Shown here: positions 1 through 56,793 of the stretch, one piece after another
Layout of the letters: the number at the start of each line of letters is the position of its first letter
Position numbering within the stretch: position 1 is the stretch's first letter
Assembly (NCBI GenBank): GCA_002305315.1
Contig: DBQQ01000052.1
Location: 40,332-104,331, forward strand
Length of the DNA: 64,000 bases
Origin: Clostridiales bacterium UBA1390
GTDB taxonomy: Bacteria; Bacillota; Clostridia; Lachnospirales; Bianqueaceae
Reading direction: 5' to 3'
Position numbers and translations under genes: made by a program
Notes under the pieces: model-generated
Databases searched by the model: none
What the model was told of the DNA's origin: nothing
What the model saw: the letters and a program-made list of their open reading frames with translations, nothing else

Positions 1-718
1 CAGGATAGCGTATAAAATCGAGGCAATCCGTTCCTTAAGCAATCTATTATACGCAAATTGAATAATAGAGGCGATGGGGATCGCGGGATAGCATATAAAA
101 TCGAGGGGATTCGTTCCTTAGGTAATTTATTGTACGCAAATTGAAAAATCAAGGAGAGCCGAATCGCGGGGGAGCGTATAAAATCGAGGGATCTCGTTCC
201 TTAAGTAATCGATTGTACGCAAATTGAAAATTTGGGAAAGCAGGATCGCGGGATAGCGTATAAAATCGAGGGGATTCGTTCCTTAGGTAATTTATTGTAC
301 GCAAATTGAAAAATCAAGGAGAGCCGAATCGCGGGATAGCGTATAAAATTGAGAAATCTCGTTCCTTAAGCAATCTATTATACGCGAATTGAAAAATAGA
401 GGAGAGCAGAATTGCGGGATAGCGTATAAATATAGAGGAGATTCGTTCCTTAAGTAAGCTATTATACGCAAATTGAAAAATCGAGGCGCGGGGGATCGCG
501 AGATAGCGTATAAATATAGAGGAAATTCGTTCCTTAGGCAATCATTCATACGCAAGATAAAAAAATGAGGTGAGGGAGATCGCGGGATAGCGTATAAAAT
601 GGAGGCGATCCGTTCCTTAAGTAATTCCTTGTACGCAAACTGAAAATTCAAGAAAGCAGGACTGCGTATAAAACCTCCCCCTCAGTATAGACTCAGGGGG
701 AGGTTTGCATTTATACGC
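1..718. repeat. Tandem array A of ~83-bp palindromic GCGTATAA repeats
   Basis: Nine copies of a unit start with GCGTATAA (once GCATATAA) at about 8, 91, 174, 256, 339, 422, 506, 590 and 664, so spacing is 82-84 bp except the last (74). The window edge truncates the array on the left. Each unit has a left arm GCGTATAA, a ~30-nt loop containing GTTCCTTA, and a right arm ending TTATACGC or TTGTACGC, so it can fold as a hairpin. A ~36-nt linker follows, ending in GAATCGCGGGATA. Open frames on the minus strand here (for example 292-651) simply read through the repeats and look like artefacts, not genes. The same family recurs at 25,993-26,661. Function unknown. Confidence 0.93.
671..706 (-). terminator. 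Terminator of the lysis cassette, nested in the last repeat
   Basis: AAACCTCCCCCT pairs with AGGGGGAGGTTT around a short loop, giving a 12-bp GC-rich stem with a T-rich side on the minus strand. It lies directly after the endolysin stop codon. It is enclosed by an outer stem, GCGTATAAA (664-672) with TTTATACGC (710-718), which is the arm pair of repeat array A. Confidence 0.8.
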
Positions 719-23662: not shown

Positions 23663-23955
23663 AAGTGTTCTTGAATAAGGAATAATGCGTTGATGAGGAG
23701 AGTAATACGCCAGTCTCCGGTCCAGAGAGAAGTGTCACAGGCTGTAAGCACTTCCGAAGAGGTCGTATGAAAACCACCTCAGAGCGGCCCCAATACGGCC
23801 CGGTGATTCCGTTATCATCGTAGGAATGAAGATGGTTTTCCATGGAAAACAAGCAGGGTGGAACCGCGGGCATACTCCCGTCCCTGTATGGAGTGTTTCC
23901 GTGTGGGCATTGATTTCGAGATAGAGAGACATTCCGGCGGAATGTCTTTTTTGTT
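23663..23955 (+). ncRNA. T-box riboswitch of thrS
   Basis: Stem I is closed by GGAAGTG (from 23661) and CACTTCC (about 23748-23754), with AGAGAGAAG inside. Two ACC triplets at 23773-23778 are candidate threonine specifiers, but the specifier was not assigned with certainty. The conserved T-box AGGGTGGAACCGCGGG is at 23855-23870. An intrinsic terminator follows: AGACATTCCG (23927-23936) with CGGAATGTCT (23938-23947) and a T-run. In the known mechanism uncharged tRNA-Thr pairs with specifier and T-box and favours the antiterminator, raising ThrS when threonine is short. Confidence 0.93.
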
Positions 23956-23999: not shown

Positions 24000-25922
24000 A
24001 TGAAGATCACACTGAAAGATGGCTCCTGTAAGGAGTATCAGGATCCCAAGAGCGTGTACGAGATCGCGCTGGACATCAGCGAGGGCTTGGCTCGGATGGC
24101 AACGGCAGGGGAGATGGATGGAGAGGTTGTGGATCTGCGGACTGTAGTCGATCATGACTGTGAGCTGAATATCCTGACGTTTAACGACGAAAAGGGCAAG
24201 GGCGCATTTCGTCATACAGCATCGCACATCATGGCGCAGGCCATTAAGAGGCTCTATCCGGAGACTAAGCTTGCGATCGGCCCTTCCATCGCAGAGGGTT
24301 TCTACTATGATGTGGACCGGGAGACTCCGTTCACAGCAGAAGATCTGGAGAAGATCGAGGATGAAATGAAGAAGATCGTTAAAGAAAACCTCGAGATCAA
24401 GCGTTATACGATGCCGAGGGATGAAGCGATCGCGTATTTCCAGGATAAGGAAGAGCCTTATAAAGTAGAATTGATCGAAGATCTGCCGGAAGGCGAGGAG
24501 ATTAGTTTTTATTCGCAGGGCGAGTTTACCGATCTGTGTGCGGGCCCCCATCTGATGACGACGAAGCCCGTTAAGGCCTTCAAGCTGACGAGCCTCGCGG
24601 GCGCCTACTGGCGTGGGGATGAGCATAACAAGATGCTGCAAAGAATCTATGGAACAGCGTTTTCGAAAAAGGCGGAGCTTGATGAGTATCTGGCCAGAAT
24701 CGAAGAGGCCAAGAAACGCGACCACAGGAAACTGGGCCGGGAACAGGGCCTGTTCATGATGCGTGAGGAGGGCCCGGGATTTCCGTTCTTCCTGCCTAAC
24801 GGAATGGTGCTGAAAAACACGCTGCTGGACTACTGGCGGACGATTCATCGCCGTGCCGGTTATGTAGAAATCAGCACGCCCATCATCCTGAGCCGCAAGC
24901 TGTGGGAAACCTCGGGACATTGGGATCATTATAAAGAAAACATGTATACTACGGTGATTGACGAGGCGGATTACGCGATTAAGCCGATGAACTGCCCGGG
25001 CGGAATTCTGGTATATCAGTCGGAACCTCGTTCGTATCGGGATCTGCCGATTCGGATGGGGGAACTGGGAATTGTACACCGCCACGAAAAGTCTGGCCAG
25101 CTGCATGGTCTCATGCGGGTACGTTGCTTTACGCAGGATGATGCCCATATCTTCATGACGCCGGATCAGATCAAGGATGAGATCAAGGGTGTGGTACAGC
25201 TGATCGACGAGGTCTATAGCCTTTTTGGATTCAAGTATCATGTGGAACTTTCTACGCGTCCAGATAACAGCATGGGCAGCGATGAGGACTGGGAGATGGC
25301 TACAGATGCGCTGCGAAGCGCCTTGGACGACATGGGCTTGCCGTATGTGATCAACGAAGGCGATGGCGCTTTCTATGGACCGAAGATTGATTTCCATCTG
25401 GAAGATTCTATCGGAAGAACCTGGCAGTGCGGTACGATTCAGTTGGACTTCCAGTTGCCGCTGCGGTTTGAACTGGAGTATACGGGCGCAGATGGCGAGA
25501 AACATCGTCCGATCATGATCCACCGCGTGGTATTTGGTTCCATCGAGCGTTTCATCGGCATTTTGATTGAACATTTCGCAGGAGCATTCCCTACCTGGCT
25601 GGCGCCTGTACAGGTGAAAGTACTGCCGATCTCGGATAAGTATCTCGAATACGGTATGCAGGTACTCGAAGAACTGCGTGCGGCCGGCATCCGTGCCGAG
25701 ATCGACATGCACGCGGAGAAGATCGGCTATAAGATTCGCCAGAGCCGTCTGGAGAAGGTGCCTTACATGCTGATCGTCGGCCAGAAGGAGGAAGAGGATC
25801 ATAAGGTGTCCATGCGCAGCCGTTATGACGGAGACGCAGGCAGCATGGATCTTTCCGCCTTCATCGAGCAGGTGCGCGAAGAGATCCGAACAAAAGAGAT
25901 TCGTAAGGCAAAAGAAGAATAA
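24000..25922 (+). CDS. thrS: Threonyl-tRNA synthetase
   Basis: 640 residues, the normal length. Domain order: TGS domain (about 1-62), editing N2 domain with the HTASHIMAQA motif (about 75-85), class II catalytic core, and an anticodon-binding domain (about 540-640). Zinc and active-site elements are visible: MNCPGG, RHEKSGQLHG, VRCFTQDDAHIF (motif 2 region) and IHRVVFGSIERF (motif 3). It charges tRNA-Thr and is controlled by the T-box leader immediately upstream. GGAAGAGGAAG precedes the ATG. Monocistronic. Confidence 0.97.
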   Translation: MKITLKDGSCKEYQDPKSVYEIALDISEGLARMATAGEMDGEVVDLRTVVDHDCELNILTFNDEKGKGAFRHTASHIMAQAIKRLYPETKLAIGPSIAEGFYYDVDRETPFTAEDLEKIEDEMKKIVKENLEIKRYTMPRDEAIAYFQDKEEPYKVELIEDLPEGEEISFYSQGEFTDLCAGPHLMTTKPVKAFKLTSLAGAYWRGDEHNKMLQRIYGTAFSKKAELDEYLARIEEAKKRDHRKLGREQGLFMMREEGPGFPFFLPNGMVLKNTLLDYWRTIHRRAGYVEISTPIILSRKLWETSGHWDHYKENMYTTVIDEADYAIKPMNCPGGILVYQSEPRSYRDLPIRMGELGIVHRHEKSGQLHGLMRVRCFTQDDAHIFMTPDQIKDEIKGVVQLIDEVYSLFGFKYHVELSTRPDNSMGSDEDWEMATDALRSALDDMGLPYVINEGDGAFYGPKIDFHLEDSIGRTWQCGTIQLDFQLPLRFELEYTGADGEKHRPIMIHRVVFGSIERFIGILIEHFAGAFPTWLAPVQVKVLPISDKYLEYGMQVLEELRAAGIRAEIDMHAEKIGYKIRQSRLEKVPYMLIVGQKEEEDHKVSMRSRYDGDAGSMDLSAFIEQVREEIRTKEIRKAKEE

Positions 25923-25958: not shown

Positions 25959-25992
25959 AAAATATATAAAGAAAATATGCAATCCCGCGTAT

Positions 25993-26661
25993 GCGTATAA
26001 TTTGTGGGGAAGTTTCGATTTATACGCACTTCGAGGAGGTTGTCTTTGCTGATCTCATATTTGCGTATAAACTTAGGGAGCTTCTATTTTCACGACGCTG
26101 AAAATGGGAAAATATTACAGATTTATACGCGTTCTGGGGATTTGCTAGCCGTCGATCTCACGAATGCGTATAAATTTGAGAGAATTAGTTCTTGTTGGAA
26201 CTGAATTGTACGCAGATCAGAAGGGGTGCTCCGCGGAATCGCGAGGATGCGTATAATTTTGAGAATATTTGTTCTCTTTAGAACTGATTTATACGCAGAT
26301 CTGAAGGGGTGCTCCGCAGAATCGCAAGGATGCGTATAATTTCATTCCTTTTAAAATTGATTGTACGCAGTTTCACGAAAAGGCGTTACAGAGTCGCTGA
26401 ATTGCGTATAATTGGGGAGATATTAGTTCTTTTTGAAATGGATTTATACGCAGATCTGGAAGGGGACTTCGCAGAATCGCGAGGATGCGTATAATTCCGT
26501 TCCTTTTAGAATTGATTATACACAGATCCGCGAAAAGGTGCTCCAGAATCCCATCTTTGCGTATAAAGTAGAGGGTGTCTCTGTCCCCCACATCACATTT
26601 TATACGCAACGAAAAGACTCCATTTTCCCATCTGCGTACAAAATAGAATGTTTGTACGCAA
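25993..26661. repeat. Array B of palindromic GCGTATAA repeats
   Basis: Units begin with GCGTATAA (last: GCGTACAA) at about 25993, 26063, 26166, 26249, 26332, 26404, 26487, 26559 and 26634. Spacing alternates mainly between 72 and 83 bp, with 70, 75 and 103 bp exceptions. Each unit has a right arm TTATACGC or TTGTACGC. The loop holds GTTCNTTTTNGAA in most copies. The linker ends in GAATCGCGAGGAT, closely matching the linker end GAATCGCGGGATA of array A at 1-718. Copies are more diverged here than in array A. The array lies between thrS and the nuclease-like gene, with only about 50 bp to the latter. No real open frame is supported inside. Confidence 0.92.
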
Positions 26662-26684
26662 AATACCTCATTTTCAGGCACGAC

Positions 26685-26712
26685 AAAAAGGCGTCCGACG
26701 TGGCGCCTTTTT
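26685..26712 (-). terminator. Terminator of the nuclease-like gene
   Basis: AAAAAGGCG (26685-26693) pairs with CGCCTTTTT (26704-26712). It overlaps the stop codon of the minus-strand gene and separates it from repeat array B. Confidence 0.75.
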
Positions 26713-27493
26713 AAATTTTCGGGATAGGTTTGTCAGGAAAGAGAAGGTGGAACGCCTTCTGCGGAGCGATCTTCCCAAAGGAGATGAGTTGCAGCACGAT
26801 CTCACGAAGGTCGATGCAGGCACGCTTCTTTTCGGGATCATGAGAATCCGTCACGAAATGCTCCTTCGTGATGAGAAGATTCTTCTTTTCCCGAATGCCC
26901 TCCGCGGCGTAGTCCTCCAGCTTGCGTTTCTGATTCTGGGCGTACTGTTCATCATCCAGCATGCCCATATGCTCGTGAAAATCCTGTGAGTCTGGAAAAT
27001 AGAAGTCAACTAAATAGGTACGCCCCTGCGCGTAAATGGAATAATTATGCGTATATTTTATACCCAGCAAATCGAACAGGAGGGAAAGGATGATCTCGCT
27101 CTTGGAATCGCGAGTCGTGCCATCGAGATATGTATTTTTCTCAACATTTTTCCCGACGCCGGCCTCCAGCGCATACTGAAAACAGGCAAGAGCATAGCGG
27201 ACATCGCGTCGATCCTTAAAGGACAGCGTCTTATATTTCGCTTTGAGCTCTTTCAGGCGCGCCTTCAGCTTCTGTCGTTCTGAGTACAACGCAAGATAGT
27301 ACGCTTCTTTGGCAGCCTTGATTTTAGTCTGTTTTCGGCCATTACGAGTAGACTCCTGCTTGTATAAATACACCTTCCCCGTTTTCTTGTTTTTCTTGCG
27401 GGAGAGACAGAATTCGGGAATGGCATGGAGTTTGAGCAGCGTATGATAGAACGAAGAAATAATATGTGCAATGTGAGATGAGAGTTTGGCCAT
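26711..27493 (-). CDS. PD-(D/E)XK-like nuclease beside repeat array B
   Basis: 260 residues from ATG 27493, chosen over the longer frame because GAAAGGGGCGAT precedes it and a promoter overlaps the upstream part. Residues 30-95 are very basic (RKKNKKTGK, TRNGRKQTKIK), fitting nucleic-acid contact. The C-terminal half resembles VSR/restriction-type PD-(D/E)XK folds: Glu133 in DSKSE, Asp163 in TYLVDFYFP, Glu174 in HEHMGMLDDEQYA, then Lys203/204 in REKKNLLIT. The HEHMG-DDEQY stretch resembles a WEHFGMMDDPEYA motif I recall from uncharacterised Clostridia proteins. It has its own promoter and terminator. Function unknown; the nuclease call rests on motif reading only. Confidence 0.65.
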   Translation of the reverse strand: MAKLSSHIAHIISSFYHTLLKLHAIPEFCLSRKKNKKTGKVYLYKQESTRNGRKQTKIKAAKEAYYLALYSERQKLKARLKELKAKYKTLSFKDRRDVRYALACFQYALEAGVGKNVEKNTYLDGTTRDSKSEIILSLLFDLLGIKYTHNYSIYAQGRTYLVDFYFPDSQDFHEHMGMLDDEQYAQNQKRKLEDYAAEGIREKKNLLITKEHFVTDSHDPEKKRACIDLREIVLQLISFGKIAPQKAFHLLFPDKPIPKI

Positions 27494-27517
27494 AGGATCG
27501 CCCCTTTCGTATATCTT

Positions 27518-27546
27518 ATAATACCACAAAGAATACGAATTGTAAA
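27518..27546 (-). promoter_or_regulatory. Promoter of the nuclease-like gene
   Basis: On the minus strand TTTACA (27541-27546) and TATTAT (27518-27523) are 17 bp apart. Confidence 0.65.
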
Positions 27547-27608
27547 GACGGAATACATCGGGGACGGATCTTGTAAAAATAACTCTTTCTGAGATGGTAT
27601 GTTGACTC

Positions 27609-27669: not shown

Positions 27670-28935
27670 ATGGAATGGGTGATTTTAGGTATAGCGGCGT
27701 TATCCGTTATACTACTTTTGATTTTAGTGTTTCGGCGGGATGAATCGGGCCTGCAGAAACTGCGGTTGTCTCTCGCCAAGGATTTGCAGGAGCAGCAAAT
27801 GCGCCAGTCACAGGCGACGGAGCAATCACTGCAGAGCCTGCGGATTGAAAATGATAAGAAGTTCTCGATGTTTCAAAATCAGTTGGAACAGAATCTGGAG
27901 GGGCGTATGAATACGCAGACGCAGATTCTGAGGGAGTTGGAAAAAGCGCTTTTGGAACAAAATCACGAGGCGCAGGAAAAGATTCTTCGGGAGTTGGTGT
28001 CCTCGATTCAAACGATGACAAAGGTCAATGATGAGAAACTCAAGCAAATTCATGGAGAGATTCGAGAGAAGCTGGATAAGTCTTTGAATGAACGCCTGGA
28101 TTCCAGCTTCGAGAAAATCGGAACGCAGTTGGGACAGCTTTATAAGACAGTCGGAGAGCTGCAAACCCTGACCAATGGCGTGGAGAATTTGAATCGTACC
28201 CTGTCGAATGTGAAGACCAGGGGAACCTGGGGCGAGATGCAACTGGAACAGATTCTTTCCAATCTTTTTCCGGAGTCATTATATGATAAGAATGTGGAGA
28301 TCAAGAAAAACAGTGGACAACAGGTTGAATTTGCATTGAAAATTCCGGATAAAACAGAGGGAGAGCGTTTTATCTATTTGCCCATCGACAGCAAGTTTCC
28401 GGCGGATTTGTATGATAAGATTCAGGAGGCGGCTGTTCAGGCGGACCGTAAGGCGATGGATACAGCCGTGAAAGAGTTGGAGGGACGGATTAAGGCAGAG
28501 GCGCGGGAGATTGGAAAGTATATTGATCCGCCGGTTACGACGGATTTCGCGATCATGTTTCTTCCCGCAGAAGGCCTGTATTCAGAAGTGCTTCGGATTC
28601 CAGGGCTGGCGGAATATTGTCAGCAGGGATACAAAGTCGTGATTTCCGGGCCGACAACCATTAGCGCATTGCTCAACAGTCTGGCGATTGGATTCAAGTT
28701 CTTGACAGTGAGCCGCAATACAAAAGAGGTGCTGAAAGTGCTGCAGAATATCCGGGGACAATATAGCAAGTTCGGAGAATTGATTGACAGGACACAGCGC
28801 AATCTGGATCTGGCAGTACGATCCACAGAAGACATGAAAAAGCGATCCGATATGATTCAAAAGCGGCTGGAAAGAGTTAGTGCGCTGGAATTGCCGGGAG
28901 AGGAAATGCAGGCGGAAGACGGACTTGACAAGTGA
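27670..28935 (+). CDS. rmuC: DNA recombination protein RmuC
   Basis: 421 residues. An N-terminal membrane helix (about 2-22) is followed by a long coiled coil (about 30-160, repeated EQNLEGRMN, EQNHEAQEK). The RmuC domain follows (about 165-390), with TRGTWGEMQLEQIL, LPIDSKFPADLYDKI, DFAIMFLPAEGLYSEVL and the VISGPTTISALLNSL block. RmuC limits inversions at repeats and is predicted to contain a restriction-like nuclease fold. It starts 30 bp after a promoter and diverges from the PD-(D/E)XK-like gene, so two nuclease-fold genes lie back to back next to a repeat array. Confidence 0.92.
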   Translation: MEWVILGIAALSVILLLILVFRRDESGLQKLRLSLAKDLQEQQMRQSQATEQSLQSLRIENDKKFSMFQNQLEQNLEGRMNTQTQILRELEKALLEQNHEAQEKILRELVSSIQTMTKVNDEKLKQIHGEIREKLDKSLNERLDSSFEKIGTQLGQLYKTVGELQTLTNGVENLNRTLSNVKTRGTWGEMQLEQILSNLFPESLYDKNVEIKKNSGQQVEFALKIPDKTEGERFIYLPIDSKFPADLYDKIQEAAVQADRKAMDTAVKELEGRIKAEAREIGKYIDPPVTTDFAIMFLPAEGLYSEVLRIPGLAEYCQQGYKVVISGPTTISALLNSLAIGFKFLTVSRNTKEVLKVLQNIRGQYSKFGELIDRTQRNLDLAVRSTEDMKKRSDMIQKRLERVSALELPGEEMQAEDGLDK

Positions 28936-35698: not shown

Positions 35699-35704
35699 TC
35701 AAAA

Positions 35705-36079
35705 GGCTGTTGCAAAATAGATGAGAAATCATCTCTCAGTTGGACTAATGAGAAAAATCTTGGATTTCTCATTAGTCTTGAAGCGATGTAACAATTTCTC
35801 AGCTGGACTAATGAGAAAAATCTCGGATTTCTCATTAGTCTTGGAGCGATGTAACAATTTCTCAGCTGGACTAATGAGAAAAACCCGGGGTTTCTCATTA
35901 GTCTTGGAGCGATGTAACAAAATCAGGCTTCGACTAATGAGAAAAATCTCGGATTTCTCAGCTTTATGGAATATCCTGGAAACGAAAAAGGAGTCCGTGC
36001 ATTCACGGAACTCCTTAGGAGATCATACTCTTTCATTCTGTATCAATGGTGAGACCAGCGTAGGTATTTTGCAACAGCC
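35705..36079. mobile_element. Inverted-repeat-bounded element enclosing a 63-bp repeat array
   Basis: GGCTGTTGCAAAATA (35705-35719) is matched perfectly in inverse by TATTTTGCAACAGCC (36065-36079). The interior has four 63-bp repeat copies and a hairpin, and no gene. It sits exactly between two convergent genes. It may be a non-autonomous, MITE-like element, or a terminator stem into which repeats have expanded. No clear target-site duplication is visible, so mobility is not shown. Confidence 0.55.
35742..35962. repeat. Array C, four copies of a 63-bp palindromic repeat
   Basis: Copies begin GGACTAATGAG at 35742, 35805 and 35868, and CGACTAATGAG at 35931, spaced exactly 63 bp. Each holds CTAATGAGAAA and TTTCTCATTAG around a short centre, so it can form a hairpin; the fourth copy is cut short. 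Between palindromes lies CTTGGAGCGATGTAACAATTT. Because 63 is divisible by three, open frames persist in several phases (for example 35721-36197), but they run into the antisense of the next gene and are judged not real. Confidence 0.92.
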
Positions 36080-36086
36080 CCATCTG

Positions 36087-56588: not shown

Positions 56589-56617
56589 TTGACAAAGTTT
56601 TTAAGAGATGATATACT
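56589..56617 (+). promoter_or_regulatory. Promoter of rplJ-rplL
   Basis: TTGACA (56589-56594), a 17-bp spacer, and TATACT (56612-56617), starting 18 bp after the transglutaminase-like gene. Confidence 0.85.
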
Positions 56618-56624
56618 ACAGACG

Positions 56625-56742
56625 TTCTGTTACCGGAGACAGCTGGCGCCGTAAGGCTTAATGTATGCCCGCCGAGGTACAAAAGTCTGTAGTAATGATT
56701 GACTTTGATTAACCTCGTCCTTCTCTCCGGAAGGACTTTTTT
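56625..56742 (+). ncRNA. L10 leader of rplJL with intrinsic terminator
   Basis: The leader contains the conserved elements of the L10 autoregulatory RNA (TTACCGGAGACAGC, AAGGCTTAATG and GCCGAGGTAC). It ends in a terminator stem, GTCCTTC (56717-56723) with GAAGGAC (56730-56736) and a T-run. L10 with L7/L12 binds this leader to repress the operon. Confidence 0.85.
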
Positions 56743-56793
56743 CATGCGGCGGTATCAGGCGCTGCCGCGAAATCTATTTGGGAGGTGAATCAG

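Follow-up and report, generated by a model that had tools for sequence, protein, structure and literature searches.

Repetitive extragenic palindromic (REP) sequences, with the related bacterial interspersed mosaic elements (BIMEs) and REP doublets forming hairpins (REPINs), are described as palindromes repeated between genes, in part as alternating arrays (the BIMEs), with a cognate REP-associated tyrosine transposase (RAYT, TnpAREP) gene and many gene-less copies (PMC8266576, PMC2817692, PMC3116915, PMC3733652); REPs are given as palindromes of 20-40 bp that carry a GTAG- or CGTC-type tag at one foot (PMC3733652). Here we describe a repeat family that is alike at that level, i.e. in having its own enzyme and many gene-less copies, from a 64,000-nucleotide stretch of Clostridiales bacterium UBA1390 (assembly GCA_002305315.1, contig DBQQ01000052.1, positions 40,332 to 104,331, forward strand), the whole of which is termed the window and supplies the coordinates unless stated otherwise. 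The window holds two arrays of inverted repeats, A and B, with GCGTATAA and TTATACGC arms. We consider it probable (roughly 0.6) that array B is one end of a mobile element, of a kind found in gut-type bacteria, combining a gene for a small Vsr/homing-endonuclease-like nuclease with an inverted-repeat array specific to that nuclease lineage, that array A is a gene-less array of the same family, and that the protein binds the arms and cuts, the unit being copied by repair.

The differences from REP/RAYT are substantial: modelling of the gene product gives a PD-(D/E)XK enzyme, and comparison of 18 family proteins with Pfam (E <= 0.01) gave one weak ATG17-like match only, with no Y1 (HUH) transposase; the arrays are long, with a fixed linker and, in the window's family, turn-sized loops; and several different nuclease/array pairs occur in one genome. 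A preliminary description of the window proposed spreading or homogenised, REP-like palindromes; the repeats do spread, and there are gene-less copies, but the family does not look like REP/BIME. No GTAG- or CGTC-type tag was seen by eye in the arm listings, for which no formal search was made. Homing endonucleases occupy an intron, an intein or a fixed genic site and cut a defined allele that lacks the element. Those of the EDxHD/Vsr-like type include I-Bth0305I (PMC6083498); the units described here differ in being intergenic and in each having its own array of sites.

Two other systems were considered and set aside. Tas proteins have a Nop-type RNA-binding domain, which was absent from the Pfam matches of the 18 proteins. 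TIGR-Tas (PMC12045711) resembles the present locus in that a small protein adjoins a regular repeat array. CRISPR loci have cas genes and identical repeats with unique spacers between them. An assignment to CRISPR does not fit array A, in which the 35-36-bp linkers are alike and the loops vary; cas genes were not searched for genome-wide. In searches of open-access PubMed Central (PMC) texts we found no description of the nuclease-array arrangement and no earlier link of such a nuclease class to palindromic repeat families.

A candidate mobile unit at array B

Near-full copies of the nuclease gene, which is unannotated, on five other contigs of the same genome (C9, C36, C41, C52 and C2) and in the window all adjoin GCGTATAA arrays. 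Aligned in gene orientation, the six copies have a common start, TTTTTRCAADATCCGTCCC, followed by promoter-like sequence, the gene itself, a terminator and the beginning of the array; upstream of TTTTTRCAADATCCGTCCC they are unrelated. One sharp left end at unrelated sites in six copies points to a mobile unit that has array B at one end and carries its own nuclease gene, the only gene in the stretch common to the six. The left-end core is itself multicopy, with 17 exact occurrences in the genome and 19 when one mismatch is allowed. Both signs that we take to mark a mobile element, i.e. common ends at unrelated sites and internally deleted copies (see below), were observed.

The unit sits between thrS (24000-25922, +) and rmuC (27670-28935, +). 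The promoter region of rmuC is common to the window and the congener G002, and the insertion therefore lies about 25 bp from it. No thrS was found within 0.8 kb (G002) or 1.5 kb (G001) upstream of rmuC, synteny being broken there, so that no empty site is demonstrable.

Association of nuclease genes with arrays

The pairing of gene and array recurs with other arms. In the same genome, six loci of paralogues (32-41% identical) adjoin 86-87-bp units with GTATAC arms and one paralogue adjoins a 52-bp unit with GGAGCGTA arms. In the congener G002 the nuclease (50-59% identical) is accompanied by GCGTATGAA/TTCATACGC and GCGTACAA/TTGTACGC arms, with 34-bp linkers and loops of 0, 1 or 20 bp in the stretch inspected; at two relatives in the congener G001 (L054, L055) no array was seen. 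Three species of another genus in the family carry, respectively, a 62-63-bp unit with GCAACCGCTGG arms, a 95-bp unit with TTGGCACGCT arms and an 84-bp unit, again with TTGGCACGCT arms. Closely related nuclease genes at L052 and L053 (G005 and G012) have the same TTGGCACGCT arms in units of 95 versus 84 bp. More distantly, six loci (L073, L129, L130, L132, L135, L139) have arrays of 52-53-bp units, the arms differing in all six, at 55-370 bp upstream of their nuclease genes.

The association was examined at 60 distant loci matched by a hidden Markov model (HMM), 42 of family f6 (L067-L086, L105, L106, L126-L145) and 18 of f1 (L087-L104), with 19 control stretches, 17 from f6 genomes and 2 from f1. 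Scoring a locus as positive required at least two inverted repeats that did not overlap, had loops of 3-60 bp and shared one exact 9-bp arm sequence. Positives numbered 21/42 in f6, 2/18 in f1 and 1/19 among controls (Fisher, 21/42 versus 1/19, p 0.0005; versus the 17 f6 controls, p 0.001), and five shuffles of each of the 79 loci gave none. The sole matching control, L114, is an orphan array whose arms and period (75 bp) are those of L082, a gene locus in the same genome. Three positives (L076, L081, L141) rest on two pairs with unequal loops and may be due to chance. In 21 of the 23 positive loci the nearest repeat is at most 700 bp from the gene.

Gene-less and deleted copies

The arms of L082 occur 34 times in nine arrays of G206, and 0, 1, 0, 0 and 0 times in five congeners; the nuclease match is absent from the stretches around the other eight G206 arrays and around the array of G163. 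Arrays at unrelated sites have blocks in common (L151 and L154, 95.5% over 537 bp), and pieces of the gene persist in several. In the G163 array (L156), one unit persists together with the left end, some 70 bp from the 3' end of the nuclease gene and 49 bp from the upstream side of the gene; about 70 bp of the gene end is retained at L114 and L149; and, in the genome of the window, C55 retains 64 bp of the 5' part of the gene and 116 bp around its 3' end. Gene remnants and common blocks in orphan arrays are marks of a mobile element shedding gene-less copies, and some orphan arrays of another species are, as judged from these alignments, internal-deletion derivatives of a gene-bearing unit. 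No gene remnant was seen at array A, whose neighbours are only non-nuclease genes (L006 on the left, CHAP on the right); we infer that it came from a gene-bearing unit of the same family.

On the right flank of four gene-less G206 arrays (L150, L151, L152 and L154), a promoter-like tail (TGTATAATTG...TTAACAAATC) precedes unrelated sequence, in some cases with a nearby ATG; this tail may drive neighbouring genes.

Structure and spread of the window's arrays

The preliminary description had reported one repeat family in two arrays with common arms, a unit near 83 bp and a diverged, irregular array B. The family is real: the window contains 25 copies of GCGTATAA, compared with a mean of 1.0 and a maximum of 3 in 100 dinucleotide shuffles, and in a listing that allowed up to 1 mismatch both arrays alternate, a GCGTATAA arm standing opposite a TTATACGC arm across a loop and a linker then joining the next pair. 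The 83-bp unit is borne out for array A, for which Tandem Repeats Finder (TRF) gives 83 bp x 7.7 with 81% matches at 3-646; its 18 arms have loops of 31-32 bp (last pair 39) and linkers of 35-36 bp (last 27). It holds for only some units of array B, which is indeed diverged by TRF (26164-26538, periods 83 and 155); here the 18 arms have 35-bp linkers (last 26) and loops of 10, 19, 21, 32, 33 and 52 bp, so that the irregularity arises because loops vary and linkers do not. Array A extends beyond the first base of the window, starting 1.3 kb earlier at position 39015 of C21, the contig that holds the window; a run of N interrupts it.

The two arrays are not an isolated pair with likeness limited to their arms. 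Beyond C21, further copies lie on 17 contigs (C3, 6, 8, 9, 25, 28, 29, 36, 41, 42, 49, 50, 52, 53, 55, 58 and 59). Exact arm pairs with a 10-40 bp loop number 70 in the genome (2,817,651 bases, 61 contigs), compared with 0 in the reversed control. Many array matches are at contig ends, as expected because repeats break assemblies. The three-arm pattern was found in none of 57 relatives searched, 2 of them of the same genus.

Of 153 linkers in 21 stretches of this genome (two with a 69-bp overlap), 136 measure 35 or 36 bp; loops fall at 10-12, 19-24, 28-33, 35-37, 39, 42-44, 51-56 and 83-84 bp. The common loop classes (12, 21-22, 31-33, 42-43, 53 and 83 bp) are about 10.5 bp or its multiples apart, the phasing statistic R at 10.5 being 0.81 for 159 loops and 0.69 for 71 locus-unique values, both inflated by related copies, and 0.43 (p 0.005) for 28 distinct lengths. 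The array thus consists of a nearly fixed linker and a loop that grows by approximately whole DNA turns. Across families the whole-turn spacing is weak (n 30, p 0.001, best period 11.2, with the GTATAC family off). Genes bordering arrays of the window's family have their 3' end toward the array in 22 of 28 non-nuclease neighbours (p 0.004), in a count for which open reading frames (ORFs) were chosen mechanically and in which one miss is an antisense ORF over thrS.

The motif RATCCGTCCC, which resembles the left end of the unit and a loop motif, occurs at 60 places in the genome, with 3 for the reversed pattern. Elsewhere, a Fibrobacter metagenome-assembled genome (L010, G058) has 12 GCGTATAA/TTATACGC pairs, 11 with a 20-bp loop, on 5 contigs; with no nuclease match in the two stretches inspected, these look like an independent repeat family. 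In Stappia indica (L009, 7161-7249), several GCGTATAA sites directly upstream of a gene with, by eye, an XRE-type regulator-like start are probably operators.

The predicted nuclease

The structure model of the window protein comprises a basic N-terminus with a helix, a three-strand sheet and a long helix, and a C-terminal PD-(D/E)XK core closest to the homing endonuclease I-Bth0305I and to Vsr. The predicted fold has the alpha-beta-beta-beta-alpha-beta core, the catalytic acids and the basic/His residue of Vsr/EDxHD-like PD-(D/E)XK enzymes; the likely catalytic positions (E, D, E-H and K) show little or no variation. On this model, the gene product is likely a Vsr/homing-endonuclease-like PD-(D/E)XK nuclease. 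No Pfam or NCBIfam family fits it: at E <= 10 the window ORF gave only a weak Thg1C line (E 0.029) in Pfam and nothing in NCBIfam, and the Rpn and PD-(D/E)XK transposase profiles of both databases matched neither the window protein nor the 18 members (E <= 0.01).

Nuclease searches gave 34 matches in the genome of the window and matches, many of them distant, in 18 of 19 genomes; among 246 genomes of the order, 44 gave matches to an HMM built on 12 members, many of them more than one. Relatives of one f6 protein are named Butyrivibrio sp. and Lachnospiraceae bacterium. A full-length relative of an f6 nuclease (27% identity) is encoded at 380-1147 of a faecal phage contig, MT839528.1 (4.2 kb).

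Features of the window

Table 1. Positions of the arrays and of the parts of the putative mobile unit in the window.
Feature	Position	Strand	Basis or remark
Putative whole unit, from left end through promoter, nuclease gene and terminator to array B	25985..27582	-	copy alignment; array-side end approximate
Conserved left end TTTTTRCAADATCCGTCCC	27561..27582	-	alignment of six copies
Sigma-70-like promoter of nuclease gene (TTTACA, 17 bp, TATTAT)	27518..27546	-	by eye from alignment
Predicted nuclease gene, 260 aa from conserved Met	26711..27493	-	ORF open to 27529 (272 aa, from TTG)
Terminator-like hairpin, A and T runs alongside, between nuclease gene and array; kept in six copies	26685..26712	-	by eye
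Right-hand part of array A (18 arms in 9 pairs; array start 1.3 kb before the window)	8..718		arm listing
Array B (18 arms; distal part of putative mobile unit, adjoins thrS terminator)	25993..26659		arm listing

A strong terminator-like hairpin lies within the last arm pair of array A (664-718), whose final arm shares bases with the stop codon of a CHAP/peptidoglycan-binding gene (711-1445, -). Also present are a T-box leader before thrS (23681-23888), an L10 leader (56615-56751) and, at 35702-36080, a sequence resembling a miniature inverted-repeat transposable element (MITE), with inverted ends GGCTGTTGCAAAATA...TATTTTGCAACAGCC around a 63-bp palindromic tandem repeat (35734-35960, 3.6 copies).

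Recognition of the arms and alternative explanations

The case for a mobile element rests on sequence features, i.e. the sharp left end, the multicopy state, the gene-less and deleted copies, co-occurrence in two families of the order, arms that change with the protein and turn-sized loops in the window's family; the nuclease fold is predicted by modelling, and the binding, cutting and copying route we infer. Across 26 loci, the more alike two proteins are, the more alike their arms tend to be (Mantel r 0.25, p 0.0002; Spearman 0.11; among pairs under half the self-score, r 0.16), and related proteins have related arms, as in L129 (TAGATAGTAAG), L071 (AGGTAGTAA) and L139 (TAGGCAGTA, reverse strand), and in the pair L133 (TTCTGTCACA) and L075 (TTTTGTCAAAA). 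Such a correlation would be the trace expected of a protein that reads its arms, though some of it would arise from common descent of gene and array alone. Several observations weigh against the mobile-element interpretation: half of the f6 loci and most of the distant f1 loci are without arrays by the inverted-repeat test, no target-site duplication was identified by eye, and the array-side end of the window's unit is only approximate.

Of the alternatives, that which survives best, although we regard it as improbable, is that the arrays are operators through which the protein, as an active or dead nuclease, controls its own gene or chromosome structure, the spread of arrays by other transposases or recombination being incidental. 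The arrays are only 5' of the gene in 18 of the 23 array-bearing distant loci, turn-sized steps would suit cooperative binding, and the arm changes suit duplex sites, being fully compensated in only 1 of the 44 units with both arms changed and favouring neither RNA strand (19 versus 17, in a count whose two-mismatch limit lets in some chance arms). However, many arrays have no adjoining gene (8 of 9 in G206), the array of the window's family lies at the 3' end of the gene, behind a terminator, the deletion derivatives resemble the remnants of a mobile element, and the likely catalytic residues are all but invariant.

Somewhat less probable again is that the palindromes extrude, on single strands or in supercoiled DNA, and that the nuclease is a structure-specific resolvase which moves the resulting hairpins or cruciforms, in a manner like RAYT/REP with another enzyme class. 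The retention of inverted symmetry while the sequence differs between families is consistent with this proposal, as are the Holliday junction resolvases among the viral fold matches and the DNA folding of 6 of 12 units, one of them in array B, at z -3.7 or below. On the other hand, both array A units tested (z -0.8 and -1.1) show no clear gain over shuffles, 8-bp stems would have to close loops of up to 83 nt, one-turn steps make no obvious sense for a hairpin loop, and the scarcity of compensated changes counts against hairpins. The uncompensated arm changes, the folding of array A and the turn-sized loops therefore favour duplex recognition in the window's family; elsewhere hairpins may be what is recognised.

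We think it very unlikely that the unit is a defence, addiction or RNA-guided system, whose array would be transcribed, or would titrate a toxic nuclease, and which would protect or poison its host cell. The catalytic domain does match the C-terminus of the candidate defence proteins PDC-S68 (18/18 members, best E 1e-28) and HEAT_CxxC_PDDEXK (11/18), and a homologous nuclease domain is also found at the C-terminus of AAA ATPases (matches on 4 plasmids). In the member shown, however, the match is limited to the common nuclease domain, and the PDC-S68 and HEAT_CxxC_PDDEXK proteins are larger (profiles of 1202-1273 and 288 positions) than the present protein, which has two parts and about 260 aa and is accompanied by arrays. 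Moreover, the units are small, multicopy and found deleted, the arrays gave no RNA family match at gathering thresholds, and the linkers in one array are similar copies rather than unique spacers. Ordinary insertion sequence or MITE activity, with the nuclease as cargo of another transposase, is scarcely credible, because, although deletion derivatives with common ends are MITE-like, no other gene is common to the six copies and the nuclease-array link recurs with different arms in two families of the order.

Under the mobile-element interpretation, each arm would be bound by the protein as duplex DNA, with the bound protomers aligned on one helix face, a proposed arrangement that would account for the turn-sized loop steps. 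The nuclease domain would then nick or cut at the array or its ends, and the unit, or an array from which the gene has been deleted, would be copied by repair into new intergenic sites.

Implications

More tentatively, and with slightly less than even confidence, we propose that the window exemplifies a class of mobile DNA that is recurrent in Lachnospirales-type bacteria (the order being taken from the names of relatives), in which nuclease and helix-phased palindromic array co-evolve as lock and key, several independent pairs coexist per genome and gene-less arrays are shed; the nuclease may assemble as a regular filament on the array, which would serve as donor or landing platform for copying. 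The results concern an uncharacterised multicopy nuclease family tied to the type of repeat at which assemblies break. They also provide a natural set of nuclease/site pairs with specificity readable from sequence, as for the three related proteins with TAGATAGTAAG, AGGTAGTAA and TAGGCAGTA, so that recognition rules are directly testable. If it is true that the nuclease moves the arrays, an enzyme class would be newly linked to palindromic repeats, working in a manner like RAYT/REPIN.
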